Program-made: the position numbers and the translations under genes
The notes under the pieces: generated by a model
Told to the model about the DNA's origin: nothing
Seen by the model: only the letters and a program-made list of their open reading frames with translations
Databases searched by the model: none
In this document: positions 9,001-29,092 of the stretch, in pieces
Layout: every line of letters begins with the position of its first letter
Numbering within the stretch: position 1 is the first letter of the stretch
Origin: an uncultured Desulfosporosinus sp.
GTDB lineage: Bacteria > Bacillota > Desulfitobacteriia > Desulfitobacteriales > Desulfitobacteriaceae
Length of the DNA stretch: 34,209 nt
Direction of reading: 5' to 3'
Assembly (NCBI GenBank): GCA_927405585.1
Contig: CAKMJS010000095.1
Location: forward strand, 1 to 34,209

Positions 9001-9735
9001 TACAGGACTGCCTCCCATGATATTATAGGTTGCCGTGTATGCGCCGACAGCGGGTATGGTAAAATTGAAATACTGGGTGGAGACTGTAAAGGGTGTCACT
9101 GGGAAAATAGCGCCTAATGTTAGCGTTCCTGGATCTGCAATCGTGTTTTGTACGGCAAGTGGCACAAGTGCGGCTGGTGCAGCAAGTAATACAGGTGCTT
9201 CAGGTGCTTCAGGCTCTGCAGCCACTTCTGTGATAAGCAGACCTACCCCACCGTCTGTTCCAGAGTTTGCTACTTTCAGATAGTACGTTCCTGGTGCGTC
9301 AAGAGTATATTCAATTGTACCTGAAGTGTCTGGCGCAAGGCTGGTGAAGGTTTCTCCCGATACTGTGCCCAACTCCATTGTCAATTCAGGACCGTCTCCC
9401 ATGATGGTATAGGTCGCCGCATAAGGACCGGCAGCGGTTATGGTGAAGTCGAAATACTGGGTGGTACTTGCAGAGAATTGTTCCACTGCGAAATTAGTCC
9501 CTAAGGTGAGTGCTCCAGACGATGTTATCGTCGACGCGGGTGTTTCCGAAGCAGGTATCACCTCTGTCAGGGTACCACCAGATAGTTCTGAATCCGTTTG
9601 GGCATAGGACGACAACGGCGGAAGTGTGGTGAATATCATTAAGACAGTCATAGCAAGGGCTATAAGCTTTCTGCAACTCACCTTTCCTCCTCGTTGGTTA
9701 TAACTGATTGAATTTTCATTCGTTTTTCTTTTCAT
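1..9735 (-). CDS. Giant secreted modular surface protein, C-terminus beyond window
   Basis: This frame is open from the ATG at 9735 to the window edge, giving 3245 codons and no stop, so the protein is incomplete. Residues 1-46 form a signal peptide (basic start, hydrophobic LIALAMTVLMIF, cleavage near SYA-Q). In order I see: four or five beta modules of about 115 residues ending in GTYYLKV-type strands, like pre-peptidase C-terminal (PPC) domains (about 55-645); chitobiase C-terminal-like modules with YYTTDGT motifs (about 650-890 and 1007-1100) with a PPC-like module between; fibronectin III and Ig-like modules (about 1220-1515); ten Ig/IPT-like repeats with GF-x-x-x-E-x-V-x-FY motifs (about 1519-2385); then alternating FnIII and Ig-like modules to the edge. 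No catalytic domain is visible. It is probably a cell-surface or extracellular adhesin or matrix protein; an S-layer or sortase anchor, if any, lies outside the window. The ATG has AGAGAGG seven bases upstream. A GTG at 9681 behind GAGGAGG is an alternative start that would give a shorter, more typical signal peptide. Confidence 0.85.
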   Translation of the reverse strand, partial: MKRKTNENSISYNQRGGKVSCRKLIALAMTVLMIFTTLPPLSSYAQTDSELSGGTLTEVIPASETPASTITSSGALTLGTNFAVEQFSASTTQYFDFTITAAGPYAATYTIMGDGPELTMELGTVSGETFTSLAPDTSGTIEYTLDAPGTYYLKVANSGTDGGVGLLITEVAAEPEAPEAPVLLAAPAALVPLAVQNTIADPGTLTLGAIFPVTPFTVSTQYFNFTIPAVGAYTATYNIMGGSPVLTMELGAVSGEIFTRLATDTSGTVEYNFTAAGTYYLKVVNSGTDGGVGLLVKAADEVPVEQNTITSPGLLTLGTMSTISSFPGASTQYFSFNVTAVGSYKAVYSVPPSGPVLTMELGTVSGEIFTSLRTDTSGTIDYTFEAPGTYYLKVVNTGTSSGVGLLVTEAVATTPTPISGTFWVPGSLMLGTTYIVDPLDYSDQYFTFVIPSPGAYMVTSQAAVGVDLSLIFGQLSGSDFSYLKTDTNGVLSYKFTQAGTYALSLSNNGTSGSVTFSVQEATTPPEVAVNGTITSSTTPGTSDADGLSLGVTSSDYAVKIYSFAAVAGKRYSAVIYKVSGVEYAQLMCSFSDAFDAGTVEFFGEFSNSEEGVPSAVYDAETSGTHYLNVQNWSGQDGSYIIKIYSNTPDAPIISPSTPSGSSTTPATITMTSTGNNPIFYTFSNIDDTRYPYSAPFSLDIGTFMVAYTVKDGIYSAAATGRYWFSNTKYPQFSPSITTQPAGTVISITGAAEGDIVYYTTDGTNPYNSATRQVYDEPSAITVDTSGLELRAIIKNANGVFGDANWSKYVRGTVQPYISNIPGSGINPGTYGDSFDAVLASSAGASIYYTLNGTTATTSSTLYTEPIPVDKNTRIRAIAVEDGITSAEMNQFLNIINPPRTISVGETVQGMSSYYGAEWFTFSITDPGSYTFELTPDNATTHGFVNYSTHYPAILYNESGGQLSNSFYPIDNTDNMKYNFTAAGTYKLRISSRIYTDDLFSLKIVQGIKAPVPSIPVDSSYSMAYIKEGALTLSTTEAGGRIFYTTDGSQPEMSATGTTSEFTSGQTIALTTTEAYQDITVKAITVINAGTASASEVKTFNYKVIPHGLDLTGIKYTNGYYPFNQTDVYSWDSYDIKAAVPGDSYSGHAISEIDFEIKLDNGSDEWISLGTITGSAVSNDYTYNKTVNWSRTQTPFAGNATLRATSSDVAGNTFRYEIPIKILMSSPTAPQNLTATPLQGAVQLNWDPSTYPSDFYYLIYRGIATDQLTERIGYVLSTSGTTYTDIINDPAGLIYYYGVKADTTSYGGGRISAFSNIVSSAAIEDTTAPTISDVSIPNGGFVKTNYTFYVSASDNTGLKEIKAEVSLKDQNTWQTAGITSGIDLTYYSFDLSNLPALTDGEYDLKVTVTDYYDNTATQLEPFTLDNTAAPAPVLQAEARPGSIKLTFNSSAEDISYYYVYFKLHEASEFSNSIYRSDNSAYYHDLRSAIGSTYDYKIVAFDRAGNESTASAIVSATVQGFSPTLSIVPDSSMPGETLNITAEGFFGQEYVYFYLDVETSYTSYRQTDNDGKATFTYNIANGLTGAHRFRFEGSTSNAKVIKTYTIGDYLPTVTAPETAIAGESISISVNQFGWLNAYNSKTVKLFLDGIEKDSIYIYNNGSTGVAASGSKVIQIPYTASGVVQIRAESTDGYTAVTNITVTPSAAAITVTPAGQRSGDSVVISVSGFAPNESVYFYKAGTYFTYVSTNAEGSATKNVQLGVADTGSIFFEAKGQTSMLNRGAIYDVLPARLVITGPASIYAGSAATFSVTGFNQGEYVVFYINGIQSGSNWGYAGATVSRSLNINETGNALITVVGYTSGMTASLICEVKNPAALAPVLVAIAESYTAGSAVTLNATGFKSAESVKFYVNTADIAPLTADAGGACSLSYTIPPGTPVGTQFVFTATGQSSGLTAVATVEQVTGSLGVSQSGSPKPGETLSATITGAYTATNCKIYLDGRNISDVGSFGDPGATTLFSYPLPYNTVIGSHNLSFLTAGGQYYNLPVTVSAPTAQVVVDQTTQVISLSGFAPNEALDLRQNGQAISGIITDSTGAASYTPSALLGAGEYLITAQGSTSNFYATGTLAVSVSAASITIDPTSTRAGAVVNLTMSNYSAGETIKLYFGSSEIVTPSPIVADASGTATVDITVASKQTAATIAVSAVGLTSGKSASAELVVSALAPDLSAVPFPGDTIRGGEYIDISVTGFPSYTDLTFTFDAVKISVEGSVKTNSIGGLTVSYKLPVSTASGTHRLLASGGGSSDTVDIEVEAQTSVLKLSATEGKGGQSITISGSNYVMALTGNTTAKVEFGNLVVAAAALVQSGSFSVSYTIPVELIDGNYIIKVTTSEQEEASAGFRVDSTAPAIPSPTVAPTVRTIVVSWTASADTDLAGYKVYRKILAADPWVELAALGKAVTAYTQTLGQGIELGATYTYGVSAYDRLSNESLKGTVTAALLSDTVKPSGSFYVQNSVTRLKAGDYTFNVYGNDNQGVGEFTLTSQKYTGTMDSSGNKIYGEEQTMWSSVNPTASSSYANVVYYYPTFNKTIEPGGGMDGEYIYTLTITDFAGNTYSFPATYYIDTTAPAAPTALAATGTAGSIALTWTGSTSSDVVGYELFSSETESGLDAQTVPTRTVGAVATSNFETAADTSMYFRLRANDSAGNRSAFTPVTSATATADTINPVMTSLSPVNGYASRNPWVYFGLRGQDNFRIKEFALEYKQSGAAGFSVLKTLQAGDDFSSAATGLEQYAWYSWDTTGLSGTYEIRVKAVDYSSNSSDYMVATYRLDKTAPAVPANVIAIGAGGSITVTWDAVTDADSDLWGYYIYRQLQPTGDDPAPAFVYIGSKNKSEVCSFTDFAVETGKSYKYGIISRDNLYNESARLDSSVTSASDFTPQITELSNGTSPLTIYAGDTLTIKATGFKPNEMVSMYLDYNASGTNTVLLNRWADPSGAVAISWRYVVNTTAGAHSLTLKGQTSGTLDTEIFTTHAPSTLPVAPAAVNLTNTGTLSLQIAGYGVNGATAYNIYRRATKTLESGDDEAAELLVGNLKTLTYTDLTVNNNKTYYYSVEALDAYGNAGSQTESLGLVPTQDTQSPSVTLTSLRNAAILTLYALVADNVGVVKAAFSYTTEDNSMSGTIGTEQNPASGRGKSVTVSQAWDTSALPDGTYIITAVISDRNGNTTEKTMTTVKRSSAKVYDGTLTAVAEALR
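8508..9396 (-). repeat. Tandem near-identical PPC-like module repeats at DNA level
   Basis: Three copies of the same segment of the giant surface gene begin (plus-strand view) near 8508, 8844 and 9225, so they lie about 336 and 381 bases apart. They share long runs of nearly identical DNA, for example around TTTCAGATA and TTTCTCCCGA. Each encodes the end of one PPC-like module, with GTVSGE-x-FTSL, DTSGTI, GTYYLKV and SGTDGGVGLL. A fourth, more diverged copy lies at about 8180-8500. The similarity indicates recent duplication inside the gene. Confidence 0.8.
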
Positions 9736-16609: not shown

Positions 16610-16828
16610 AGTTTTTGATATGTATACTATTTGCTTTTTGTTAGCTTTAATACATTTATGTAATGTTAATTCTAAAATTTTAAAGTATCCCTGATTAACA
16701 TACTTGAGTCTAAAACATGATTTTAACGCCTGAATATGATAGAATATGAAATTATAGATTGTCTTTAGGAGTATTTCGAATTTTATATTTAGATGTTTAA
16801 AATTCTTGGCAATTGGAGTGAAATATCA

Positions 16829-19156
16829 ATGATTAAAATAATAGATAATGGGGTTTATCTACTTTCTGGACAAACTATCGTCAATCAAAAAGGTGACGTC
16901 ATAGTTAGCAATAATACTAAAACAGCCATTATTCAGGAAATGAATTCGCACACTGCCCATCAAGAGACTATGGCTTATAAAATATTATCTCAACACAATA
17001 CTTCCGGAAGTACAGAACAACTGAAAATTCGTTTTGACAGTTTAGCTTCCCACGATATCACATATGTAGGGATTATTCAGACAGCAAGAGCCAGTGGCTT
17101 AGAACAATTTCCGGTGCCTTATGTACTCACTAATTGCCATAATAGTCTTTGTGCCGTAGGTGGTACTATTAATGAGGATGATCATGTATTTGGCCTTTCA
17201 GCTGCTCAAAAATATGGCGGGATATTTGTACCTGCTCACCAGGCAGTTATTCATCAGTATGTAAGGGAGACCATGACGGGTTGCGGCAGAATGATTATTG
17301 GCTCAGACAGTCATACCAGGTATGGTGCCCTTGGGACTATGGGAATCGGTGAGGGTGGGCCGGAGTTGGTTAAACAGCTGTTGGAGAAAACTTATGATAT
17401 TGCCTATCCTGATATTGTTGGTGTATACATGCAAGGTAAACCGCGCCCTGGTGTTGGACCCCAGGATGTCGCTTTAGCCATTGTTGGGGCAGTATTCGAA
17501 AAAGGCATCGTAACTAACAAGGTTCTAGAATTCGTCGGTCCGGGGATAGCTAACTTATCGGTGGATTATCGTAACGGAATCGATGTGATGACCACAGAAA
17601 CAACTTGTCTAAGTTCTATTTGGCAGACAGATGACAAGGTTAAAGAATATTTTGCGATTCATGGAAGACCTGAAGCTTACTCTAAACTGGAACCTGGAGA
17701 AGTAGCTTATTATGATGGAATGATTATTGTTGATCTTGATAAAATAGAGCCGATGATTGCTTTGCCTTTCCATCCAAGCAATGTCTATACTATTTCTGAC
17801 CTCAATGAAAATGCTCAGGACATTTTACACATAGTAGAAGAAGAAGGTAAGCATCAAATTGGCAATCCTAACTTAAAGTTTTCTTTAACGGATAAGATTG
17901 TAAACGGTAGGTTACAGGTAGATCAGGCTATTGTTGCTGGTTGCGCCGGAGGTACTTTTGAAAACATGGTAGAGGTTGCTCAGATTATCAATCGGCGTTC
18001 CGTTGGGAATGATCAATTGTCACTAAGCATGTATCCTGCAAGTCAACCAATATATCTAGAACTGGTCAAAAACGGTGCTATTGCTAAGATGATGAGCGCA
18101 GGGGCAGTTATTAAAACAGCTTTCTGTGGACCATGTTTTGGAGCTGGGGATGTACCAGCCCATGGAGGACTTAGCATTAGGCATACTACTCGAAACTTTT
18201 CGAACAGGGAAGGCTCAAGACCGGGCGAAGGACAAATATCATCCGTAGCTCTAATGGATGCTAGGTCGATTGCTGCCACAGCTCGAAACGGTGGGAAATT
18301 GACTTCTGCAACTGAGATAGAATACGATAATCCACTGGTACCTTATCAATTTGACCAAGGAATCTATACCAATAGAGTATATAATGGATATAGCCTTCCT
18401 AAAAAAGAGAAAGAATTACAATATGGACCGAATATCGCAGATTGGCCGGACATGATTGCCTTGACAGATAATCTAATTCTTAAGGTTGCAGCAGTTATCA
18501 TGGATTCAGTAACGACAACCGATGAATTAATACCATCAGGAGAAACATCCTCTTATCGTTCCAATCCTTTGAAGCTTGCTGAATTTACTTTGTCGAGGAA
18601 AGAACCTAGGTATGTAGGTAGAGCCAAACAAATACAATCCCTAGAACTAGAAAGAAAAGAGTTACTTGCTGCTAATGGTGGTGAATTTGTCCTATCTGAC
18701 GCTCTAAGGGAATTAAGCCAAAAAGTATTAAAGTCAGACACACCAACTGATGCTGATATAAAGAATTTGCTTCAGACCACTGGGATTGGCTCAGTTATCT
18801 ATGCTGTAAAACCTGGAGATGGCTCTGCAAGGGAGCAGGCAGCTTCTTGTCAAAAGGTTTTGGGAGGCTGGGCGAATATTGCTACGGAATATGCCACTAA
18901 ACGCTACAGGAGTAATTTGATTAACTGGGGAATGCTGCCGTTCACTGTCTCTAAGGAAGTCGTTTTTGGAACTGATGATATAATTTACGTATCTGGGCTC
19001 AAAAAGAAGATTATTGATAGTGAGGATCTCTTTCCTGCTGTATTAATTACTCCTAAAGGAACCAAAGAGATAGAGCTTAAATTAGAGAATATTACCAAGG
19101 ACCAAAGGGATATTATACTAAAGGGAAGTCTGATTAATTACTATACGGTGTCTTAA
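16829..19156 (+). CDS. Aconitase-family hydratase, [4Fe-4S] type
   Basis: This 775-residue protein contains the aconitase core with [20 protein letters not shown], cluster cysteines Cys372 (AGCAGG) and Cys433/Cys436 (FCGPCFG), an active-site-like NFSNREGS, and a C-terminal swivel domain with [10 protein letters not shown] and [13 protein letters not shown]. The first cluster motif reads [11 protein letters not shown] where citrate-cycle aconitases have a CTNSS-type motif. This points to a divergent subgroup resembling the YbhJ-type hydratases, and citrate may not be its substrate. I chose the ATG at 16829, which has GGAGTG eight bases upstream; an earlier in-frame ATG at 16793 lacks one. It is monocistronic, closed by a strong terminator, and has no citrate-cycle neighbours. 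Confidence 0.85.
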
Positions 19157-19232
19157 AATAAGTAAAAAATTAAATCTTAAAAGTGAGTTCTTAAAAATAA
19201 GTCTTGAAATAATGTAAGGGTAGTAAAACTTT

Positions 19233-19271
19233 AAGGAGTCTCCGGAAAAATCTCTGGAGGCTCCTTTTTTT
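19233..19271 (+). terminator. Intrinsic terminator after the hydratase gene
   Basis: AAGGAGTCTCCGGA pairs with TCTGGAGGCTCCTT (two G-U pairs) around a short A-rich loop and is followed by a run of seven T. It lies 76 bases after the hydratase stop. Confidence 0.92.
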
Positions 19272-19380
19272 GCTTTAAGGAATCTAAAATAGGACTTTAT
19301 TTTTTGGAGTTATACCCTGATAATAGTAAAAGGGAAAGTGCCATTATTTACAAAGTACAGTGTTGAAAGGAATAAATTAT

Positions 19381-20586
19381 ATGTTATCAATATCTTTGGC
19401 AGAGCAAGCAGCTCTTCTTATCACTATTTGCTTTTCATTTTTAATATTAGGCCTTACCCAAGTTATAAATAAAGAGAGAAGTATCCTAAAAATAATTGGA
19501 CTTAGTTTTTTTGTTCCGTTTTTTCTTTGTCTTTTTGTAGTTTTTAATCAAAGCATTATAGTTCCTGCAACGATGCTTCTTTACATAGATTTATCCTTAC
19601 TCGGAATAATATTTTTGGTGGTAGTATTTTGGTACTCTAAAAGAAGCTATGTAATTTGTGTAATGCTTATTATGATTTTCTCTGTAACAGTTATCCTGAC
19701 TAGTTCGTATGCTAAGGCTTTACCAAGCTTGTTTCTTCTGTATCATGTTCAGGGGATAATCGTAGGATTACTAACTATATCAATAATTTTAATGTTAAAG
19801 AAATATACCGAGCAAAATGATCCGAGATTTGTCGGGGGTATTTTATTACTAGGTACAGCTCAAATAATGAATTTGGTCATAACGCAGGAAATGATATTTA
19901 TAGGATTAGCGGTTAAGTTCTTGGCTTATCTGCTGCTTACTTATTATGTTATTAATACTATGCAGTCTTCTTTGATGAAAAGACTGACTAAAGCAGAATC
20001 AAAGCTTCTTGACCTGGATAAAACCATAAATATTGAGGTTAAGAAGAAAATGATTCCTATAGTACAGCATAATGAACATCTGCAGAATATGGTTATGATA
20101 GATAATCTGACTAATGCCTATACCAAGAAATTTATCCTAGATACTATTGAAAAGAGGATAGAAGCTCCTAGTAAGGAAGGTTTCACTGTTATTATGTTCG
20201 ATGTCGACAATTTTAAAATACTCAACGATACCCAGGGGCACTTAGCAGGTGACGTTATCTTAAAAAAGATTGCAACCATTGCCAGAGCCAGTATCAGGAA
20301 CTTGGATATTCTAGGACGTTATGGAGGAGACGAATTCATCATCGTTCTTCCAGGTATAAATGCCTCAGAGGCCATATTCGTAGCTGAAAGATTTAGGAAG
20401 AAGGTAAGGGAAGCAGACCTAAATATATCTGTATCTGTTGGAGTGGCTTCTTATCCGGAAGATGGGAAAACAAGAGAGGAACTTATACAGATAGCAGATG
20501 CAGGACTTTATCATTCAAAAAAACTTGGTAGGGATACCGTTACTTACTATTCGCAAATGTTTTCTACATCTTCTTCTATAAAATAA
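19381..20586 (+). CDS. Membrane-bound diguanylate cyclase (GGDEF)
   Basis: This 401-residue protein has about six or seven hydrophobic segments in its first 200 residues, a short linker helix, and an intact GGDEF domain: DNLTNAYTKKF, VIMFDVDNFKILNDTQGHLAGD, GRYGGDEF and YHSKKLGRDTV. Arg-Asn-Leu-Asp lies five residues before GGDEF, the RxxD product-inhibition site. It should make cyclic di-GMP at the membrane in response to an unknown signal. The N-terminal membrane part does not match a named sensor that I can recall. The start at 19381 is preferred because AAAGGA lies nine bases upstream; an in-frame TTG at 19360 is weaker. A separate promoter for the next gene lies just downstream. Confidence 0.88.
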   Translation: MLSISLAEQAALLITICFSFLILGLTQVINKERSILKIIGLSFFVPFFLCLFVVFNQSIIVPATMLLYIDLSLLGIIFLVVVFWYSKRSYVICVMLIMIFSVTVILTSSYAKALPSLFLLYHVQGIIVGLLTISIILMLKKYTEQNDPRFVGGILLLGTAQIMNLVITQEMIFIGLAVKFLAYLLLTYYVINTMQSSLMKRLTKAESKLLDLDKTINIEVKKKMIPIVQHNEHLQNMVMIDNLTNAYTKKFILDTIEKRIEAPSKEGFTVIMFDVDNFKILNDTQGHLAGDVILKKIATIARASIRNLDILGRYGGDEFIIVLPGINASEAIFVAERFRKKVREADLNISVSVGVASYPEDGKTREELIQIADAGLYHSKKLGRDTVTYYSQMFSTSSSIK

Positions 20587-20603
20587 CTAATGTGAAGAAT
20601 AGC

Positions 20604-20631
20604 TTGTTCAAGAATTATTGTACACTATAGT
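20604..20631 (+). promoter_or_regulatory. Possible sigma-A promoter for the sigma-54 activator
   Basis: TTGTTC and TATAGT are separated by 16 bases, 30 bases before the likely TTG start of the activator gene. The -10 box matches well and the -35 box is partial. Confidence 0.4.
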
Positions 20632-20660
20632 CAAAGACTTATTGGCGGGGAGTGACTGTT

Positions 20661-22499
20661 TTGAGACCAAAGTTACTTATTGTTGCCCCTAATGAAAATA
20701 TTGCCCAGTCAGCACGAGAGGTAGCTGTGGAAGGCGGTTTTAATTGTCGTATTGTAGTAGGAAACCTGCAAAATAATATAACGAAGTTTGCTCGGGAGGC
20801 AGAAAAAGACGGGACAGAAGCAATCATAAGCAGGGGGGGGACCTTTTTATTTATTAAGGAATTGATTGAGGGTATTCCCTGTGTTCCCATCAGTGTGTCG
20901 ACGTTAGATTTGCTTCAGGCTCTTAAATCTGTGTCTCATAAGTATAAAAAAATCGGAGTGATGGGTTTTCCTAATACGATATATGAAGCGTCATCTATAG
21001 GGAAGTTTCTAGATTTAAATATTGTAGAAATTCCCTTGCAGGATCTTACTTCTCTTAAGCATAGAATTGAAGAGCTGAAGGCGAAAGGGCTTGAGGTTAT
21101 TGTTGGCGATACAGTCTCTTTTTTTATTGCTTCCGAGATTGGAGTGGAAGGGGTTCTTATCAATTCTGGGAAGAGATCTATCTTTCATGCCATGGATAGA
21201 GCTGAAGAGCTTGCATATCTGCGACGAAAGGAGGCCTTTGTCCAGCAACGTGTTCGAGCAATTCTAGACAGCGTTACTGAAGGGATTATTGCATTGGATC
21301 ACCAGCATATGATTATAGATATTAATCCAGCAGTAGAACGTTATTTTGGATTAAGGCGTCACCATTTACTCGGGAAATCAATAAAAGAATCATTGCCACA
21401 ATATGTATCTACAAATGATGAACTGTTAACGATTAAGAATCAAAAATATCTTATAGTTACTCAGCGAATACATCATGAGGGAATCGAGGGTGGATGCATT
21501 CTCACTGTAAAACCTTTAAAACAGATCCAAGATCTGGAGAAGAAGGCTCGTAAGAAGCTTCACGCACAGGGATTGGTTGCGAAACATACATTCGAGGATA
21601 TCATGGGGAAAAGTGAAGCTATCTTAAAAGCTGTGGAATGGGCTAAAAGAATTAGTAAATCGAATTCCACAGTAATTATTGACGGAAGAACAGGTACCGG
21701 TAAAGAAATGTTTGCCCAAAGTATTCACAATGAGAGTCTACGTGAGAATGAACCGTTTGTTGCTGTCAACTGTGCTTCCCTACCTGAATCTCTATTAGAA
21801 AGTGAACTTTTTGGTTATGTGGAAGGAAGTTTTACAGATGCGCGGAAGGGTGGAAAGGCTGGATTATTTGAGCTTGCCCATCAAGGAACGATTTTCTTAG
21901 ACGAAATTGGTGATATGAGTATAGCGGTTCAGGCTAAGGTTCTGCGCGTGCTGCAAGAGAAAGAGGTTATACGTTTAGGGGATAATAAAGTAATCCCTGT
22001 TGATATCCGGATTATCGCTGCAACACATGTAGATCTCAGAGAAGCTGTAAAGGAAGGGAAATTTAGAGAGGATTTATTCTATAGAGTGAATGTGTTAAAG
22101 CTTACAATGCCCACTTTGGTAGAACGTAAAGAGGACATTTGCCTTTTAGCTGAACATTTTTTACATAAACTAAACGTCTCTCTTACTTTCGAACCTGATG
22201 CTTTACTAGCACTTCTTGAATATGAATGGCCAGGGAATATCAGAGAACTACATAATTTTATTGAGAGACTATTAGTGTTAAGTGATGGGTCTAAGATAGT
22301 TAGTAAAGATGTATTATCGCTTCTTCCTGACAAGAAGACAGAAATGAATATAGATGGGATAAGTCACTCACGACGTTTAAAAGACGATGAACTACTCGAA
22401 GCATTGCGAAAGACTGGTGGGAACCAAACCCATGCTTGTGAAATGCTCGGGATAAATCGGTCTACTCTCTGGAGGAGATTACAGAAGATTGATGGATAG
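20661..22499 (+). CDS. PrpR-type sigma-54-dependent transcriptional activator
   Basis: This 612-residue protein has an N-terminal PrpR_N ligand-sensing domain (about 1-165, with ISRGGT), a PAS-like domain (about 195-290, ILDSVTEGIIALD), the sigma-54-interacting AAA+ domain (about 310-545) and a Fis-type helix-turn-helix (about 570-610, GGNQTHACEMLGINRSTLWRRLQ). Walker A is GRTGTGKE and Walker B is GTIFLDEIGD. The loop contacting sigma-54, normally GAFTGA, reads GSFTDA (21825-21842). I chose the TTG at 20661, eight bases after GGGGAG; the GTG at 20652 is too close to that site. The gene lies directly before a sigma-54 promoter driving a TTT transporter and a UxaA-type enzyme, which are its probable targets. 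Confidence 0.9.
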   Translation: MRPKLLIVAPNENIAQSAREVAVEGGFNCRIVVGNLQNNITKFAREAEKDGTEAIISRGGTFLFIKELIEGIPCVPISVSTLDLLQALKSVSHKYKKIGVMGFPNTIYEASSIGKFLDLNIVEIPLQDLTSLKHRIEELKAKGLEVIVGDTVSFFIASEIGVEGVLINSGKRSIFHAMDRAEELAYLRRKEAFVQQRVRAILDSVTEGIIALDHQHMIIDINPAVERYFGLRRHHLLGKSIKESLPQYVSTNDELLTIKNQKYLIVTQRIHHEGIEGGCILTVKPLKQIQDLEKKARKKLHAQGLVAKHTFEDIMGKSEAILKAVEWAKRISKSNSTVIIDGRTGTGKEMFAQSIHNESLRENEPFVAVNCASLPESLLESELFGYVEGSFTDARKGGKAGLFELAHQGTIFLDEIGDMSIAVQAKVLRVLQEKEVIRLGDNKVIPVDIRIIAATHVDLREAVKEGKFREDLFYRVNVLKLTMPTLVERKEDICLLAEHFLHKLNVSLTFEPDALLALLEYEWPGNIRELHNFIERLLVLSDGSKIVSKDVLSLLPDKKTEMNIDGISHSRRLKDDELLEALRKTGGNQTHACEMLGINRSTLWRRLQKIDG

Positions 22500-22512
22500 T
22501 TTATTGGAACCG

Positions 22513-22559
22513 TTGCAAATGTTGCAAAAACGTTGCTCTGATGTTGCGTAAGTGTTGCT
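22513..22559 (+). promoter_or_regulatory. Five phased GTTGC repeats, likely upstream activator sites
   Basis: GTTGC occurs at 22513, 22522, 22533, 22544 and 22555. The last four steps start at 22522 and are exactly 11 bases each, close to one helical turn. The array lies about 75-120 bases upstream of the -24/-12 promoter, the usual place for enhancer sites of a sigma-54 activator. The first two also form TTGCAA palindromes. Confidence 0.7.
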
Positions 22560-22630
22560 GGCGTTCGAAGATATCAGAAAAGTCTGTCAAAAAAGCCTGT
22601 ATTAGAACAGTATTTGCTTAATTGCGAAGT

Positions 22631-22646
22631 TGGCATGGTACTTGCG
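22631..22646 (+). promoter_or_regulatory. Sigma-54 (-24/-12) promoter
   Basis: TGGCAT, five bases, then TTGCG matches the consensus TGGCAC-N5-TTGCA with the invariant GG and GC and correct spacing. Transcription would begin near 22657, about 48 bases before the TctC start. Confidence 0.85.
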
Positions 22647-22704
22647 TTATATAACAATGTAACGAAGACCTAATAATAGGGGAGTAAAAAAAGGAGGAAT
22701 TTTA

Positions 22705-23715
22705 GTGTCAAAAAAAAGAAACCACATCTTAGTAGTTGTACTCATAGTTGCCCTTATGCTTACTTTTACAGCTTGTGCAAGTCAGACAGCAGCGCCAGCA
22801 CCAGCACCAGAAGAAAGTAAATATCCTGAGAAAGCGATTTCAGTCCTAATTGGTTTTAACCCAGGTGGCGGAAGTGACCAACTCGCTCAGCTTGCTAACC
22901 CATTTTTGTACAAGTATCTGGAGGTATCTGTTTCGAATATTTATAAACCCGGAGCAACAGGTGCGATTGCTTGGACTGAATTGGCAAAGCAAAGCAAGAA
23001 TGACGGCTATACAATCAGTGTGACAAATACACCTATGCTAATGACAAACTACATTATGAATGATGATATTACCTATAACATCGATGAATTAACTCCACTT
23101 GTCAATGTTTTAACAGACCCTGGAGTTATCGTTGTTGGTAAAGACAGCCCTTTTAAAACGTATGAGGATTTCGCCAAGGCAGTAGAAGAAAACCCTGGTA
23201 CAGTAACCGTTGGAAACTCCGGAACCGGTGGAGATGATTTCTTTACAACTTTAATCTGGGAAAAAGCTTCCGGACTGAAAGTTCAAATGGTACCTTTCCA
23301 AGGAGATGGTCCTTCCTACCAGGCGGCTCAGGGTGGAAAAATCGATGCTAGTTTCACCAACCTTGGTGTTGTCTACGGCCAAGTGCAGGCTGGAAATGTC
23401 CGTATTCTTGCTACATTCACAAACGAAAGATCCGGACTAGTTCCTGATGTGCCTACTATGAAAGAACTAGGTTTTGATGTTGTAGCGGGATCTTCCCGTG
23501 GTTATAGTGCACCCAAGGGGATTCCAGATGATGCAAAGGCTGCATTGATTGAAGCATTTGAAAAGACTTTCAAAGACCCTGAATTCCTTGCCAACATTGC
23601 AAAGTTAGGTCAAGAACCCGATATTATGATTGGTGATGATTATGCCAAATATCTCAAAGATAGTGAAACAGAATTCATAAACATTTGGAATGAGGTTAAA
23701 GACCAAGTAAAATAA
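22705..23715 (+). CDS. TctC-type solute-binding lipoprotein of TTT transporter
   Basis: This 336-residue protein has a lipoprotein signal with lipobox FTAC (Cys24) and a short Ala-Pro linker. The Bug/TctC fold follows: KAISVLIGFNPGGGSDQLAQ near the start, GATGAIAWTELAK, VTVGNSGTGGDDFFTTLIW, and VPTMKELGFDVVAGSSRGYSAPKGIPDD. Outside the membrane it should capture a small carboxylate for the TctAB permease. The ligand is not predictable from sequence. The GTG start is well supported by AAGGAGG seven bases upstream. It is the first gene after the sigma-54 promoter, and a hairpin separates it from tctB. Confidence 0.9.
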   Translation: MSKKRNHILVVVLIVALMLTFTACASQTAAPAPAPEESKYPEKAISVLIGFNPGGGSDQLAQLANPFLYKYLEVSVSNIYKPGATGAIAWTELAKQSKNDGYTISVTNTPMLMTNYIMNDDITYNIDELTPLVNVLTDPGVIVVGKDSPFKTYEDFAKAVEENPGTVTVGNSGTGGDDFFTTLIWEKASGLKVQMVPFQGDGPSYQAAQGGKIDASFTNLGVVYGQVQAGNVRILATFTNERSGLVPDVPTMKELGFDVVAGSSRGYSAPKGIPDDAKAALIEAFEKTFKDPEFLANIAKLGQEPDIMIGDDYAKYLKDSETEFINIWNEVKDQVK

Positions 23716-23772
23716 ATACTTTTTAAATGGTAGAACTTACTCGAAATCATAAAAACTCTCAGAATAATTTCG

Positions 23773-23807
23773 AAGGGAGAGAACGATGGATTCGTTCTCT
23801 CCCTTTT
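23773..23807 (+). terminator. Intercistronic hairpin between tctC and tctB
   Basis: AAGGGAGAGAACGA pairs perfectly with TCGTTCTCTCCCTT around five bases and is followed by TTATA. It is a strong stem with a short T-run. It would protect or end the tctC message and so raise binding protein over permease while allowing partial readthrough. Confidence 0.75.
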
Positions 23808-23893
23808 ATACAAGATCTATCCCGAAAATATCCAGACTCATTGTAAACGGGTATGGTATGAAGGAAGGAACAACCTGTAGAGGAGGGGAGTAA

Positions 23894-24337
23894 ATGAAGA
23901 AACAATTCATATATAATTTGGTGGCGGCAACAGTAGCGATTCTCTTTGCCTGGATATTTTATTATGAATCCCTAGATTTACCCAGAGTAGCCTATCTATT
24001 CCCGAGGCGGCTAACCTATGTCATTACAATTCTTGCCATTGCCTTGGTGATTGAAGCGTATTATAAGTATCGTAAAGCTACCCTAGAAGAGCAAGAAGAA
24101 GGAATTAAGGTGCTACGAGCTAGTATTTTCACAGTCTCAATTGCTCTGTATGTTTTTTCCATCAATATAGTTGGTTATTTTATTACGACCCCTTTATTTA
24201 TATTTGGTACGATGTATTTCCTTAAGTCAACAAAAACACGGAATATACTTCTTATCACCATAGCATTTACTTTATTTGTCTATCTGCTATTTGTAAGGTT
24301 TCTTAATTTACCGATACCACTTGGATCATTTTCTTGA
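23894..24337 (+). CDS. TctB-type small permease subunit of TTT transporter
   Basis: This 147-residue membrane protein has four hydrophobic segments (about 5-23, 42-58, 75-100, 105-140) and the short charged loop after segment 2 typical of TctB. It lies 14 bases before tctA and should form the permease with it. The start has GAGGAGGGGA upstream. TctB proteins are poorly conserved, so the call rests on size, topology and position between tctC and tctA. Confidence 0.85.
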   Translation: MKKQFIYNLVAATVAILFAWIFYYESLDLPRVAYLFPRRLTYVITILAIALVIEAYYKYRKATLEEQEEGIKVLRASIFTVSIALYVFSINIVGYFITTPLFIFGTMYFLKSTKTRNILLITIAFTLFVYLLFVRFLNLPIPLGSFS

Positions 24338-24351
24338 GAGGAGGCTAAGGT

Positions 24352-25845
24352 ATGGATAATATTTTACTGGGCTTAACTAATGTACTCACCTTGATGAATA
24401 TTTTGGCGATTATTGGCGGAACTGCTATTGGCTTATTTGTAGGAGCGATGCCTGGGCTCTCAGCAACGATGGCTATAGCCATTCTCTTGCCGCTTACCTT
24501 CGGACTTCCTCCGGCTACCGGTATCAGTATGTTGGCTTCATTATATCTGGCTGCAATGTACGGAGGTTCGATTGCAGCAATCCTTATTAGAACTCCAGGA
24601 ACTCCTGCAGCTGCGGCAACTGTTTTAGATGGTTATCCTATGTCTCAAAAAGGGCAAGCAGGAAAAGCGTTAGGTTTTTCTTTGGTAGCCTCTCTCGTGG
24701 GTGGCTTGATAAGCAGCATAGCCTTGCTGACGGTAGCACCAATTCTGGGCGGTATTGCACTCAAGTTTGGTCCTGTAGAGTTATTTGCTGTTGCCGTACT
24801 CGGACTAACTATGATTGGTTCCTTATCCCAGGGATCACCAATCAAAGGACTTTTAGCAGGTGTAGTGGGAGTTATGATTGCAATGGTTGGCATGGATGCT
24901 ATCTCAGGTGCACCAAGATTTACTTTTGGAAATATTCAATTATATTCAGGTATTCCTTTCGTAGTAGCCCTCATTGGCCTTTTTTCAATTCCTCAAGCTA
25001 TTAGGCTGATAGAGAAAGACCAAGAGCTTATAAAACCAGGATCAATTAAAGATAAGATGCTTCCTAGTTTTAAAGAATTAAAATCAATGTGGGTCACAAT
25101 GATTCGCTCCAGTTTTATTGGGATTTTCACCGGATTAATCCCCGGAACAGGCGGAGATACTGCTTGCTGGTTTGGATATAATGAAGCTAAACGCTTCTCG
25201 AAACATAAAGAAAAATTCGGAACCGGTTATCCAGAAGGGATTGTAGCTGCTGAAGCTGCCAATAATGCAGTAGTAGGCGGAGCACTTATTCCAACGCTTG
25301 CCTTAGGTATCCCTGGAAGTTCAGCAACAGCCATTCTGATGGGAGGGCTAATGGTTCACGGGATTATGCCCGGTCCGACCTTGATGACACAATATGCGGA
25401 TGTAACTTATACTTTGATATGGGCGCTTTTCCTGGCAAATTTTGCTATGTTTGGAGTAGGATTGCTCTTTACCAGAGTCAGCGTATCGGTAACCAAGGTT
25501 CCCAACAAAGTTCTTGGTCCAATTATAATTATTCTTAGTGTTATAGGTGCTTTTAGTATCAATAATAATATATTCAATGTTTACCAGATGTTGGGATTTG
25601 GTCTTTTAGGATACTTTATGGATAAGGTTAAAATTCCGAGTGCTCCAATGATAATTGGTATGATTCTGGGAATGATGCTGGATAATTCCTTTAATCAATC
25701 ACTCATGATGAGCCAAGGCGATTACTTTGTATTCTTTAAGAATCCTATTTCGGCTACGTTACTAGCCATTGCAGCTTTCTCTTTACTTCAAGCCACACCA
25801 TTATTTAGATTTATTAGACGTAAGATAAAAAATAAAGTTGCATAA
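24352..25845 (+). CDS. TctA-type large permease subunit of TTT transporter
   Basis: This 497-residue protein has about twelve membrane segments and the duplicated TctA signature: GAMPGLSATMAIAILLPLTF with YGGSIAAILIRTPGTPAA in the first half, and GLIPGTGGDTACWFGY with ALGIPGSSATAILMGGLMVHG in the second. It is the ion-coupled transport subunit, driven by a cation gradient in characterised members. The ribosome binding site GAGAGGAGG precedes the ATG. Confidence 0.93.
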   Translation: MDNILLGLTNVLTLMNILAIIGGTAIGLFVGAMPGLSATMAIAILLPLTFGLPPATGISMLASLYLAAMYGGSIAAILIRTPGTPAAAATVLDGYPMSQKGQAGKALGFSLVASLVGGLISSIALLTVAPILGGIALKFGPVELFAVAVLGLTMIGSLSQGSPIKGLLAGVVGVMIAMVGMDAISGAPRFTFGNIQLYSGIPFVVALIGLFSIPQAIRLIEKDQELIKPGSIKDKMLPSFKELKSMWVTMIRSSFIGIFTGLIPGTGGDTACWFGYNEAKRFSKHKEKFGTGYPEGIVAAEAANNAVVGGALIPTLALGIPGSSATAILMGGLMVHGIMPGPTLMTQYADVTYTLIWALFLANFAMFGVGLLFTRVSVSVTKVPNKVLGPIIIILSVIGAFSINNNIFNVYQMLGFGLLGYFMDKVKIPSAPMIIGMILGMMLDNSFNQSLMMSQGDYFVFFKNPISATLLAIAAFSLLQATPLFRFIRRKIKNKVA

Positions 25846-25927
25846 ATGGATGAGGTGGATGATTTTCATCAAAGATGAAGGCAAACCTCAAATAAAGTAA
25901 GTTGATAGTCTCATAAGGGGGATAACA

Positions 25928-26212
25928 ATGAATAATTCTAAAGCAGTACAAATAGACCCTCGTGATAACGTTGCAGTGGCTTTATCTGATGTAAAGGCAG
26001 GAGATAAAGTGGTTGTTGTCACAGAAACAGAAATGATTGAAATCATTGCCAAATCAGATATTACATTTGGCCACAAGATAGCTTTGTTAGAGTTTAAACC
26101 AAAAAGGCCTATTATTAAATATGGGGAAGAAATCGGTAAAAGTCGGGATGCGATTGCGGCAGGGGAATGGGTACACCTGCATAATGTTTATTGTGAACGC
26201 GGAAGACAATAA
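25928..26212 (+). CDS. Small subunit of UxaA/SuyA-type lyase (SAF domain)
   Basis: This 94-residue protein corresponds to the N-terminal SAF domain of altronate and galactarate dehydratases and to SuyA, the small subunit of (2R)-3-sulfolactate sulfo-lyase. Visible family marks are PRDNVAVALSDVKAGD, ITFGHKIAL, IIKYGEEIG and GEWVHLHNVYCERG. It acts with the large subunit encoded 46 bases downstream. GGGGG lies six bases before the ATG. The two-gene arrangement occurs both in SuyAB and in other split UxaA-type enzymes, so the substrate stays open. Confidence 0.85.
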   Translation: MNNSKAVQIDPRDNVAVALSDVKAGDKVVVVTETEMIEIIAKSDITFGHKIALLEFKPKRPIIKYGEEIGKSRDAIAAGEWVHLHNVYCERGRQ

Positions 26213-26258
26213 AGTAAATTTTGTATTTGTAAAAGGCAAAGGGAGGAAAGGGGTTTTT

Positions 26259-27428
26259 ATGAAAACATTTATGGGGTACCGCAGACCCAAAGGCCTGCCT
26301 GGAGTAAGGAACATGGTTGCGATCATTCCTTCGGTTTTTTGTGCAAACACTGTTGTGCAACGGATTTGTGATCAAGTTACTGGAACGGTTTGCTTTCCGC
26401 ATCCAGTAGGTTGTTCTCAGGTAGGAAATGATCTAGAACTTACAGCTAAAACTTTAAAAGGGCTTGGAAGACATCCTAATTTTTACGGAGTAGTTATTAT
26501 TGGGCTTGGTTGTGAACGTTTTAAGCCTGAAGAACTTGAAGCTAGCATTAAAGAATGGGATAAACCTGTGGAAAGTGTAGTTATTCAGGAGGCAGGGGAT
26601 ACCCTTAAAACTATAGAACAAGGTGTTAGAATTGCTCAAAGAATGGTTGCGGAAGCTGCCAAACAACAGCAAGAAGAGTTTCCGATTTCAGAAATCTGTC
26701 TGGGTCTAAAATGTGGAGGGACAGATGCCACATCCGGAATCGCAGCCAATCCTGCCTTGGGTTGGGTGGCTGACCAGATTGTCACAGCAGGAGGCAGGGC
26801 TATCTTAACCGAAGTCACTGAACTTATTGGGGCAGAGCACGTTCTCGCTAAAAGAGCGGTGGACGAACAAGTCGCCAAAGATATTCTAGAGACAATAACC
26901 AGAATGGAAGAAAAGCTTAAATTAGGAACAGTCCATAATGATTTACAGAATCGCTCCCAGTTGATCTCGCCAGGAAATGAAGATGGCGGGGTAACGACTG
27001 TGTCAGAAAAAGCCTTGGGAGGAATCCACAAAGGTGGAACAGCACCAATAAGCGGTGTACTCAAATACGGAGAGGCCATCAGCAAACGGGGGTTGCATAT
27101 TCTGGATTGCCCGGGGCATGACGGAGAAGCGGTGACTGGTCTTATTGCTTCGGGCTGCCAGATTGTCGGATTCACCTCAGGTAGGGGAACGCCAACAGGT
27201 TTTGCAGGGGTCCCGGTAGTCAAGATTACAGGCAATAACAGAACATACGAACGTATGAAGTTCAACTTAGATTTCAATGCCGGTGGAGTCATTGATGGGA
27301 AAAGTATTCCTGAAGTCGGGGCGGATCTGCTAGAAATATTTATAAAAACTGCTTCGGGTGAGCCTACCAAAGCCGAAATGATTAGAGGCAATGAGTTATT
27401 CTGTGTCACCAGAAGTTATGGTGGATAG
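26259..27428 (+). CDS. Large subunit of UxaA/SuyB-type lyase
   Basis: This 389-residue protein matches the C-terminal catalytic part of altronate/galactarate dehydratases and SuyB: GYRRPKGLPGVRN, FCANTV, HPVGCSQ, GLGCERF, LKCGGTDATSG, LDCPGHDGEAVTG and SGCQIVGFTSGRGTPTG. The conserved Cys and His residues fit an iron-dependent lyase that removes water or sulfite from a 2-hydroxy-acid. I chose the ATG at 26259 with AAAGGGG five bases upstream; the frame is open back to 26121 but overlaps the small subunit and adds residues the family lacks. Together with the TTT transporter and activator this suggests a dedicated import-and-lyase route. In known sulfolactate utilisers, suyAB can sit beside a TTT importer. 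Confidence 0.85.
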   Translation: MKTFMGYRRPKGLPGVRNMVAIIPSVFCANTVVQRICDQVTGTVCFPHPVGCSQVGNDLELTAKTLKGLGRHPNFYGVVIIGLGCERFKPEELEASIKEWDKPVESVVIQEAGDTLKTIEQGVRIAQRMVAEAAKQQQEEFPISEICLGLKCGGTDATSGIAANPALGWVADQIVTAGGRAILTEVTELIGAEHVLAKRAVDEQVAKDILETITRMEEKLKLGTVHNDLQNRSQLISPGNEDGGVTTVSEKALGGIHKGGTAPISGVLKYGEAISKRGLHILDCPGHDGEAVTGLIASGCQIVGFTSGRGTPTGFAGVPVVKITGNNRTYERMKFNLDFNAGGVIDGKSIPEVGADLLEIFIKTASGEPTKAEMIRGNELFCVTRSYGG

Positions 27429-27483
27429 ACCCTTGTATCGAAGAACAATCACTTGTTAATTGCTTTCCTTAACCTCCTTCTTA

Positions 27484-27508
27484 TAGGCTGTCGCAGTGCG
27501 ACAGCCTA
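27484..27508. terminator. Hairpin between convergent genes
   Basis: TAGGCTGTCGC pairs with GCGACAGCCTA around a three-base turn. It ends two bases before the stop of the minus-strand small gene and about 55 bases after the large lyase subunit. T-runs are short, so it is a moderate shared terminator. Confidence 0.65.
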
Positions 27509-27510
27509 AT

Positions 27511-27774
27511 TTATATCTTGTAAAGATACCATTTACAAGTATTAAGCTCATATTTCAGCTCAAATATCTTAAGAATGCCGTTAACTTCTCCCTGACAACG
27601 AAAAAGCAGCATGCGATTACCTGCAATATTTTCCTCGGTTCTAAAAAGTATCTGACTTACTTTTATAGTTTTATAAGTTTTATCTTCAGTTAGAATTCTG
27701 TACCTCAAAGGGTGAGGGATTCCATCCTTGGTGAACCAGGCTATAGATTCTATGGGTTGCATGCAAATTTTCAT
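27511..27774 (-). CDS. Small conserved-looking protein downstream of Y-family polymerase
   Basis: This 87-residue, mostly beta protein starts with MQPIESIAWFTKDG. It contains a paired pattern IKVSQILFRTEENIAGNRMLLFRCQ and FELKYELNTCKWYL, and has no membrane segment or signal peptide. I cannot assign a named family. It is cotranscribed with the polymerase gene 26 bases upstream and has a strong GAGGGGGA ribosome binding site, so it is a real gene and probably part of the damage-induced unit. It does not look like the YolD proteins that often accompany Firmicute polymerases. Confidence 0.75.
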   Translation of the reverse strand: MKICMQPIESIAWFTKDGIPHPLRYRILTEDKTYKTIKVSQILFRTEENIAGNRMLLFRCQGEVNGILKIFELKYELNTCKWYLYKI

Positions 27775-27800
27775 GATGTATCCCCCTCGATTAAATTAAG

Positions 27801-29054
27801 TTAGAGAATACTAGACATCATAGGGTATTCTTCTGTTTCGATAACCCCGCCGCTTAGGGGCTTTAAGCCACTGCAAAGAAAGGCAGAGCGGAAGACTGAA
27901 TGAGAACCGTATCTTAAACGGATAGTATCTATGGCCTGATCGATAAGCTTTTGTTTCTCGATGTCTTTCTCAAAGAGTGAAGGTTGGAAGAGAGTATTGC
28001 TGCTAAGCTCTGAAACACGTAGCCCTAGATGACGGATAGGTTCACCCTGCCATAGTTCGGTGAGTAGTTGACAGGCTATTTGATGAATTACAGAGGTACA
28101 ATCGGTAGGAATATTAAGTTTCCTTTGATGGGAATAATAGAAAAATTCCTTAGTTTTTAGGGAGACTGAGATTAAGCTAGTACAAAAAGCATCCTGTCTA
28201 AGTCGCATCCCAACAGTCTCGGCAAGTGATAATAGGACAAGCTGGGCAGTGCTTTTGTCTTCGACATCAAAGGATATGGTGGTAGAGTTACCCATCCCTT
28301 TAACAGGGATTGAGTCATTATATCTGACAGGGGAATCATCCCGGCCATTAGCGTAGTTCCATAGCAAGAGACCATAGCTCTTGAGATACCTTCTAAGGTC
28401 ATCAGGATTTTCAGAAGCGAGATCCCCTATAGTATGTATCCCTCTATCCCAGAGTTTACGAGAAGTGGCTCTACCTACCCCAAACAGCTCCCCTACAGGG
28501 AGAGGCCACATTTTAGAAGAGATTTCGTCTGGAAAAATAGTATGAACTCTATCAGGTTTTTGTAGTTCTGACGCCATCTTAGCTAATAACTTATTAGAGG
28601 ATATCCCTATATTGACGGTGAAGCCCAATTTTTCCTTGACTTCGTCTTTTATTCTATAAGATGCTTCTAATGGATCTCCCAGAAGCTTCTCCATGCCGGT
28701 AAAGTCCAAAAAGAATTCATCAACTGAATATTGCTGAAGTAGAGGTGAATATTCTTGGAGCAACTCTTTAAGTGCCATGCTGCATTGTCGATAAAGGCTG
28801 TAATTAGGGCTAACTATTAGAAGGTTGGGACATTTATTTCTAGCAGAAAATAAAGTCTCACCAGTTTGAATCATAAACTTTTTAGCAGGAATGGATTTAG
28901 CTAGAATTATCCCATGACGCGTCTCTGGATCTCCTCCTATTGCTGAGGGAACGGTACGTAAGTCTAAGGAATCTCCGTGCTGTATTCTATGACAAGCCTC
29001 CCAAGAGAGATAGGCTGAGTTTACATCTATATGGAAGATGAGGCGCTTATTCAT
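27801..29054 (-). CDS. Y-family translesion DNA polymerase (DinB/UvrX-like)
   Basis: This 417-residue Y-family polymerase has catalytic acids in FHIDVNSAYLSWE (Asp10) and YSVDEFFLDF (Asp112-Glu113), a fingers motif with KSIPAKKFMIQTGE, a helix-hairpin-helix-like FGVGRATSRKLWDRGIHTIGDLA, and a little-finger domain. The C-terminus lacks an obvious beta-clamp motif at the extreme end, though SLFEKD near residue 367 may serve. DVNSAYLSWE in place of the DinB-type DMDAFFASVE places it nearer the UvrX/YqjW branch. The ATG at 29054, nine bases after AAAGGA, is preferred to TTG 29063. A LexA-type box lies upstream, indicating SOS control. Confidence 0.9.
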   Translation of the reverse strand: MNKRLIFHIDVNSAYLSWEACHRIQHGDSLDLRTVPSAIGGDPETRHGIILAKSIPAKKFMIQTGETLFSARNKCPNLLIVSPNYSLYRQCSMALKELLQEYSPLLQQYSVDEFFLDFTGMEKLLGDPLEASYRIKDEVKEKLGFTVNIGISSNKLLAKMASELQKPDRVHTIFPDEISSKMWPLPVGELFGVGRATSRKLWDRGIHTIGDLASENPDDLRRYLKSYGLLLWNYANGRDDSPVRYNDSIPVKGMGNSTTISFDVEDKSTAQLVLLSLAETVGMRLRQDAFCTSLISVSLKTKEFFYYSHQRKLNIPTDCTSVIHQIACQLLTELWQGEPIRHLGLRVSELSSNTLFQPSLFEKDIEKQKLIDQAIDTIRLRYGSHSVFRSAFLCSGLKPLSGGVIETEEYPMMSSIL

Positions 29055-29092
29055 AACATTCAATCCTTTTGAATTAGATTCTTAAGTGAACT

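Follow-up and report, generated by a model that had tools for sequence, protein, structure and literature searches.

A short intergenic region in the genome of an uncultured Desulfosporosinus sp. harbours five copies of the pentamer GTTGC, placed between the gene of a sigma-54 activator and a sigma-54 promoter that precedes a set of tricarboxylate transporter genes (tctCBA). This raises the question of whether the repeats constitute the enhancer (UAS) through which the adjacent activator drives these genes, and, if so, which of their features define the element and whether it represents a new type of operator. The window considered here, this being the whole stretch of DNA that was analysed, comprises 34,209 nt, and its relevant features are collected in Table 1.

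Table 1. Position of the GTTGC half-sites, the promoter element and neighbouring genes within the window
Feature	Position	Strand	Remarks
Sigma-54 activator gene, proposed array binder	20652..22499	+	PrpR_N, PAS, AAA+, Fis-type HTH (Pfam)
Half-site 1 GTTGC	22512..22516	+	First of 9-bp pair; identical across three aligned orthologues
Half-site 2 GTTGC	22521..22525	+	Second of 9-bp pair
Half-site 3 GTTGC	22532..22536	+	Spaced 11 bp from site 2, but 12 bp in the two close orthologues
Half-site 4 GTTGC	22543..22547	+	ATTGC in both close orthologues
Half-site 5 GTTGC, promoter-proximal	22554..22558	+	
Sigma-54 -24/-12 element TTGGCAT-N5-TTGCG	22630..22646	+	GG-N10-GC; 15/17 bases invariant, three orthologues
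tctC, tripartite tricarboxylate transporter substrate-binding protein, proposed target operon	22705..23715	+	PF03401
tctB	23894..24337	+	PF07331
tctA	24352..25845	+	PF01970
Altronate/galactarate dehydratase-like gene (GD_AH), conserved neighbour	26121..27428	+	

The GTTGC array and its sigma-54 promoter

The five half-sites follow one another at 9, 11, 11 and 11 bp, in agreement with a sequence-only reading of this DNA that had described five GTTGC with four of them exactly 11 bases apart; the start given there for each copy was one base too high, and the correct positions are those of Table 1. The array is beyond chance. Neither five GTTGC nor four GTTGC in constant spacing were recovered when the intergenic stretch (22500-22704) was dinucleotide-shuffled 5000 times (0/5000 for each), and the same is true of any 5-mer with at least three different letters occurring four times at a constant spacing of 6-25 (0/5000; threefold occurrences arose in 25/5000). 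It is also the only evenly spaced 5-mer array of at least four copies in the window, with none appearing in 20 whole-window shuffles, and GTTGC as such is commoner than chance across the window (78 observed vs 51 expected). Throughout the 4.48-Mb genome, GTTGC-N6-GTTGC-N6-GTTGC is present only at this array (two overlapping matches; control 0). The looser form GTTGC-N4-8-GTTGC-N4-8-GTTGC is unspecific, with 26 matches in the same genome and five for the reversed control.

The sigma-54 element is made up of TTGGCAT (22630-22636) and TTGCG (22642-22646), and is separated from the last GTTGC by 71 bases. A promoter of this kind about 75 bases beyond the array had been described in the sequence-only reading; the element is indeed present, and the distance is slightly shorter than stated there.

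Close orthologues of the activator are found in two genomes of another family, G058 (91 % identity) and G057 (87 %). In an alignment of the window with both, 24 of the 25 GTTGC bases are invariant, vs 49 of the 105 other upstream bases, i.e. those between the activator gene and the promoter (p 2.4e-6). The spacer DNA between the sites is non-repetitive, and varies while the sites are kept. Conservation of the repeats in orthologous promoters, which the sequence-only reading had offered as a check on itself, is therefore observed in the three orthologues, and the reading is not refuted. A potential sixth half-site, GTTCG at 22563, is kept in neither G058 nor G057 and was rejected.

The surroundings of the array display two further features. 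Gene order in the block 16793-29063 (aconitase-like, GGDEF, activator, tctCBA, GD_AH, Y-family polymerase) is shared with G058 and G057, the encoded proteins being 69-95 % identical. Due to this collinearity in another family, and to a best activator match of only 58 % when 28 further genomes of its own genus are considered, horizontal transfer of the block is probable. At the other end of the window, a single reading frame, 3245 codons or longer and open at the window start, occupies positions 1-9735 of the reverse strand and matches Fn3-associated, CHB_HEX_C_1 and Ig-like domains; its giant product is probably a surface protein.

An activator clade that co-occurs with the array

The activator matches the AAA+ (PF00158, 1.2e-68) and Fis HTH (PF02954, 7.5e-13) families of Pfam. 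When compared with the NCBIfam PrpR equivalogs it scores 397.6 for TIGR02329 (cut-off 499.2) and 376.6 for NF011953 (cut-off 703). Since both cut-offs are missed, the protein is PrpR-like in build rather than a demonstrated PrpR; no prp genes are present among the neighbours scanned (12 of the window's gene products).

Within the order, 73 genomes were searched at E ≤ 1e-140, with no more than 17 candidates being scored in each, and the activator clade was detected in seven. Beyond the two close orthologues, it contains five relatives of 56-58 % identity, one of which is a paralogue in the own genome. In the activator tree the eight direct-repeat members form one clade with support of 100/100. 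All eight possess an identical recognition helix, LGINRSTLWRRL, and all eight have GSFT[DN]A as their sigma-54-contact loop; the other 21 aligned activators carry GAFTGA or a one-change form. The form in the window, GSFTDA (activator residues 392-397, window 21825-21842), differs from GAFTGA by two changes. Each of these changes alone, as GSFTGA and GAFTDA, is listed as keeping activity in the available sections of PMC4641369, in which the double form GSFTDA was not found. The promoters of the clade carry sigma-54 elements which, although the promoters were picked by that element, argues that the clade still uses sigma-54. The second residue of Walker A also varies, being R, N, Q or K in the clade and E in 19 of the 21 other aligned activators.

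Presence of the array coincides with presence of this clade. Patterns consisting of GTTGC-N4-GTTGC followed by TGGCAY-N5-TTGC, either 60-90 or 91-121 bases on, match exactly the seven clade genomes (11 matches, representing nine promoters), with every match located inside the activator's own gene cluster and none obtained for the reversed-pattern control. Similarly, direct GTTGC repeats 9-12 bp apart are found no more than 500 bp after the activator match at 8/8 clade loci, and same-direction repeats under these limits at one of 37 other activator loci (L167). The corresponding p values, 6e-10 (Fisher) for the patterns across 73 genomes and 7.6e-8 for the repeats (8/8 clade vs 1/34 other loci), are overstated by kinship, as the eight clade loci share descent and are not eight independent events. 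In 398 genomes of the phylum, the direct form with a sigma-54 element, at N60-90 only, matches the own genome only.

In the five paralogue clusters, another array stands ahead of a further sigma-54 element, that of an IlvD/Edd-type dehydratase gene (assigned by Pfam in G000, and by like protein starts in the other clusters). The GTTGC copies are spaced 9-9 in G000 and G012, whilst G006 possesses a spacing of 9 together with ATTGC. In G011, three of the four GTTGC lie on the opposite strand; G018 has a 9-bp NTTGC run, without an exact direct pair, in which two of three GTTGC are on the opposite strand. A majority on the opposite strand, as in G011 and G018, is something that an enhancer allows. 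The elements of G006 and G012 were missed by the strict patterns because AGGCAT replaces TGGCAT in both.

Spacing and polarity of the half-sites

Exact phasing at 11 bp was considered as the defining trait of the array, yet this is not upheld by its relatives. Both G058 and G057 display spacings of 9-12-11-11, the window copy being without one base between sites 2 and 3; as both orthologues have this extra base, the 11-11-11 run is partly peculiar to the window, and it is sites 3-4-5 that keep 11-11 in all three. The paralogue tct promoters are mostly spaced at 12 and 9, with values of 12-9 (G000b, G006 and G012), 9-13-9 (G011) and 9 (G018). More generally, neighbouring exact GTTGC copies in clade promoters are 9-13 bp apart (8 with ATTGC), and due to this variation a strict lattice is excluded. 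The view that all sites occupy one face of the helix fails as a rule too, because the 9-bp run of G018 drifts. At 10.5 bp/turn, the helical resultant is 0.86-0.94 for the eight tct promoters and 0.75 for the two dehydratase promoters with three GTTGC, although high values come easily with 2-5 sites at 9-13 bp.

A 9-bp direct pair of exact GTTGC, on the other hand, is present in 12 of the 13 clade promoters compared, all of which were chosen for carrying a sigma-54 element. In addition, GTTGC is situated 75-78 bases before TGGCA in all eight tct promoters of the clade. A single array-to-promoter distance was considered for every target; it holds for tct (8/8) and fails for the dehydratase promoters. 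What is kept is a half-site read as polar, [TC]GTTGCR, together with the 9-bp direct pair and the proximal GTTGC at 75-78 bp from TGGCA. In five paralogue-type tct promoters (L145, L148, L149, L150 and L151), a terminator-like hairpin, ACCCCTT..AAGGGGT, with T-rich DNA lies between the array and the -24 region, filling part of the 75-78-base gap (from the alignment; two folded), and perhaps shields tctC from transcription continuing out of the activator gene.

The polarity of the half-site was assessed on 28 9-bp pairs read on both strands, of which 21 were kept, 20 being distinct. G occupies p1 in 18/20 and p10 in 16/20 of the distinct pairs, with the qualification that the strand kept per promoter was the one with more GTTGC, which favours G at p1 and hence a polar result. 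Over the 13 promoters, the promoter strand carries 38 GTTGC and eight GCAAC, and GTTGC-N5-GCAAC, this being the inverted spacing counted, is absent (0 in 13). Such counts point to [TC]GTTGCR in direct repeat as the half-site, its polarity supported but not settled.

The appearance of a direct repeat could nevertheless derive from the self-complementarity of TGCA, due to which many pairs, e.g. GTTGCAA, are readable as inverted. The true operator may then be a dyad, TTGCA-N5-TGCAA, that is read by a dimer, with the other GTTGC acting as weaker half-sites. Such a dyad is perfect at 22513-22527 (sites 1-2), the repeat search reports an imperfect palindrome across the same two sites, and a few relatives do use true inverted repeats. 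The inner positions are slightly better mirrored than directly repeated within the 20 pairs (p6/p12 18 vs p6/p15 15; p7/p11 14 vs p7/p16 11), but the mirror partners p11 and p12 were fixed by the pattern used for pair selection. At the outer bases mirror agreement is low (3/20 for p1/p17, 8/20 for p2/p16 and 4/20 for p8/p10), whilst direct agreement reaches 16/20 at p1/p10. The 38 to eight excess on the promoter strand likewise disfavours a dyad, and sites 3-5 (GTTGCT, GTTGCG and GTTGCT) do not fit TTGCA. A dyadic operator is consequently considered unlikely, and the direct repeat of a polar half-site is the interpretation preferred here.

Genuinely inverted sites occur in more distant relatives. 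Among 12 activators of 42-47 % identity, three (L167, L168 and L169) have GTTGC-N5-GCAAC downstream, and the 500 bp examined for the other nine contain no GTTGC repeats, direct or inverted; L033 (43 % identity) also has neither form. By eye, L171-L174 contain TTTCA/TGAAA-like words instead. In 398 phylum genomes, the inverted GTTGC-N5-GCAAC combined with a sigma-54 element (N80-110) yields four matches, with none for the control. In G183 and G119 the site, TGTTGC-N5-GCAACA and hence of the TGT-N11-ACA form, separates a homologous activator from a GD_AH gene; we infer that the activators of these two genomes belong to XduR. The site in G257 follows an activator that matches from residue 310 on (46 %), and that of G217 has no activator in the 3.1 kb examined. 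The recognition helix LGINRSTLWRRL is shared by L167, one of the inverted cases, is near-identical in L169, and is replaced by LGIDRSTLWRKL in L168. The half-site seems to be common to both groups, with its arrangement having changed.

Proposed function and relation to known enhancers

It is very probable that the array is the UAS to which the adjacent activator, as predicted here, binds and from which it drives tctCBA. The sequence-only reading had called it an enhancer for a PrpR-type activator; in this, a UAS at a sigma-54 promoter is supported, whilst the PrpR label applies to the domain build alone. In the proposed mechanism, the Fis-type HTH domains of several protomers would bind head-to-tail half-sites [TC]GTTGCR, these being the 9-bp pair and the further sites at 11-12 bp, in an array that starts 77-119 bases ahead of TGGCAT. 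The PrpR_N/PAS part would sense a ligand, probably some organic or sugar acid that TctCBA transports, upon which the AAA+ domains would assemble into a ring. With the short DNA between array and promoter bending, ATP hydrolysis would open the sigma-54 polymerase complex and so turn tctCBA on.

That a different regulator, be it a repressor or a global factor, binds the array in place of the adjacent activator is improbable, even though two regulators could share the promoter: the array co-occurs with the activator clade, does so with two unlike target genes in paralogue clusters, and its direct repeats are seen at just one of 37 other activator loci. A functionless minisatellite or chance repeat, or an element acting at the RNA level, can hardly be credited, for although loose GTTGC triples elsewhere are mostly of the period-9 GTTGCTCC type (20 of the 26 in the own genome, and also most genus triples among the matches listed), the sites are kept here while non-repeat spacers vary, no Rfam match is obtained at gathering score, and the array precedes the sigma-54 element.

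Long period-9 runs of the GTTGCTCC type are present in many genomes of the genus (G000:C84, G004:C57, G005:C239 and others), among the matches listed, and presumably encode short-residue protein repeats. A GTTGC triple (9, 12) with a further GTTGC is situated at G006:C5:73175 (L152 about 7165-7201, reverse strand), by eye within an ABC-transporter-like frame; the 14 kb examined contain no sigma-54 match, and the distance to an activator with 39 % identity is about 5 kb. Another loose triple occurs at G000:C125:33290.

With regard to novelty, the notion of a new operator type does not stand as worded; what can be retained is a new direct-repeat arrangement of a half-site that is inverted in a few relatives. 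A possible, albeit tentative, account is that the clade turned the inverted TGT-N11-ACA half-site into head-to-tail arrays on which protomers would dock one way, and may build the ring on a directional strip, not from symmetric dimers, a change that would go with the GSFT[DN]A loop. The array overturns nothing known. It does, however, provide a concrete candidate operator for a clade of PrpR_N-domain activators that has been little studied, and the existence of direct and inverted forms with identical or nearly identical recognition helices poses the question of whether sigma-54 activators need symmetric dimer sites.

Several described systems can be set beside this locus. PrpR, the propionate regulator, has the PrpR_N, AAA+ and Fis HTH architecture of the window activator, which in turn differs by falling below the PrpR cut-offs and by having tct transporter genes next to it, not prpBCDE. 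In Pseudomonas aeruginosa, PilR employs direct TGTC-type elements before a sigma-54 promoter. TGT-N11-AGA and nearby GTCT elements are mentioned in the available text of PMC6058289. PilR is unlike the window system in the sequence of its sites and in being a response regulator.

The TGT-N10-12-ACA UAS of NifA/FhlA-like activators, found in 15 of 39 Clostridiales groups with XduR (kdgT-uxaA) included (Nie et al. 2019, PMC6615313, in the sections available), resembles the array, as predicted here, in being a sigma-54 UAS bound by a Fis-type HTH near its target operon. That class is inverted, whereas the [TC]GTTGC half-sites of the window stand head to tail, 9-12 bp apart. No description of a GTTGC direct-repeat UAS was met in the passages of the literature that the search covered.

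Closer in layout is Nla28 of Myxococcus xanthus, for which the available portion of PMC9765219 describes imperfect 8-bp half-sites in tandem ahead of sigma-54 promoters, often numbering 3-5 at a promoter, with binding needing two half-sites in the two promoters tested by EMSA mutants. The window displays the same arrangement, with at least two half-sites of like orientation lying within about 25 bp, upstream of a sigma-54 promoter; Nla28 differs in its half-site (CT[C/G]CG[C/G]AG), in being a response regulator and in its wider spacing (mean 25 bp) (PMC9765219). GcsR of P. aeruginosa, according to the accessible sections of PMC4894688, likewise has three tandem sites before an RpoN site, giving three shifted complexes, although its unit is an 18-bp palindrome and not a polar half-site of 5-6 bp as here. 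In view of the tandem half-sites of Nla28 and the tandem palindromes of GcsR, as presented in those sections, the kind of enhancer is already known. Judged from its sequence, the array is a direct-repeat variant of that kind, and its novelty lies in the arrangement.
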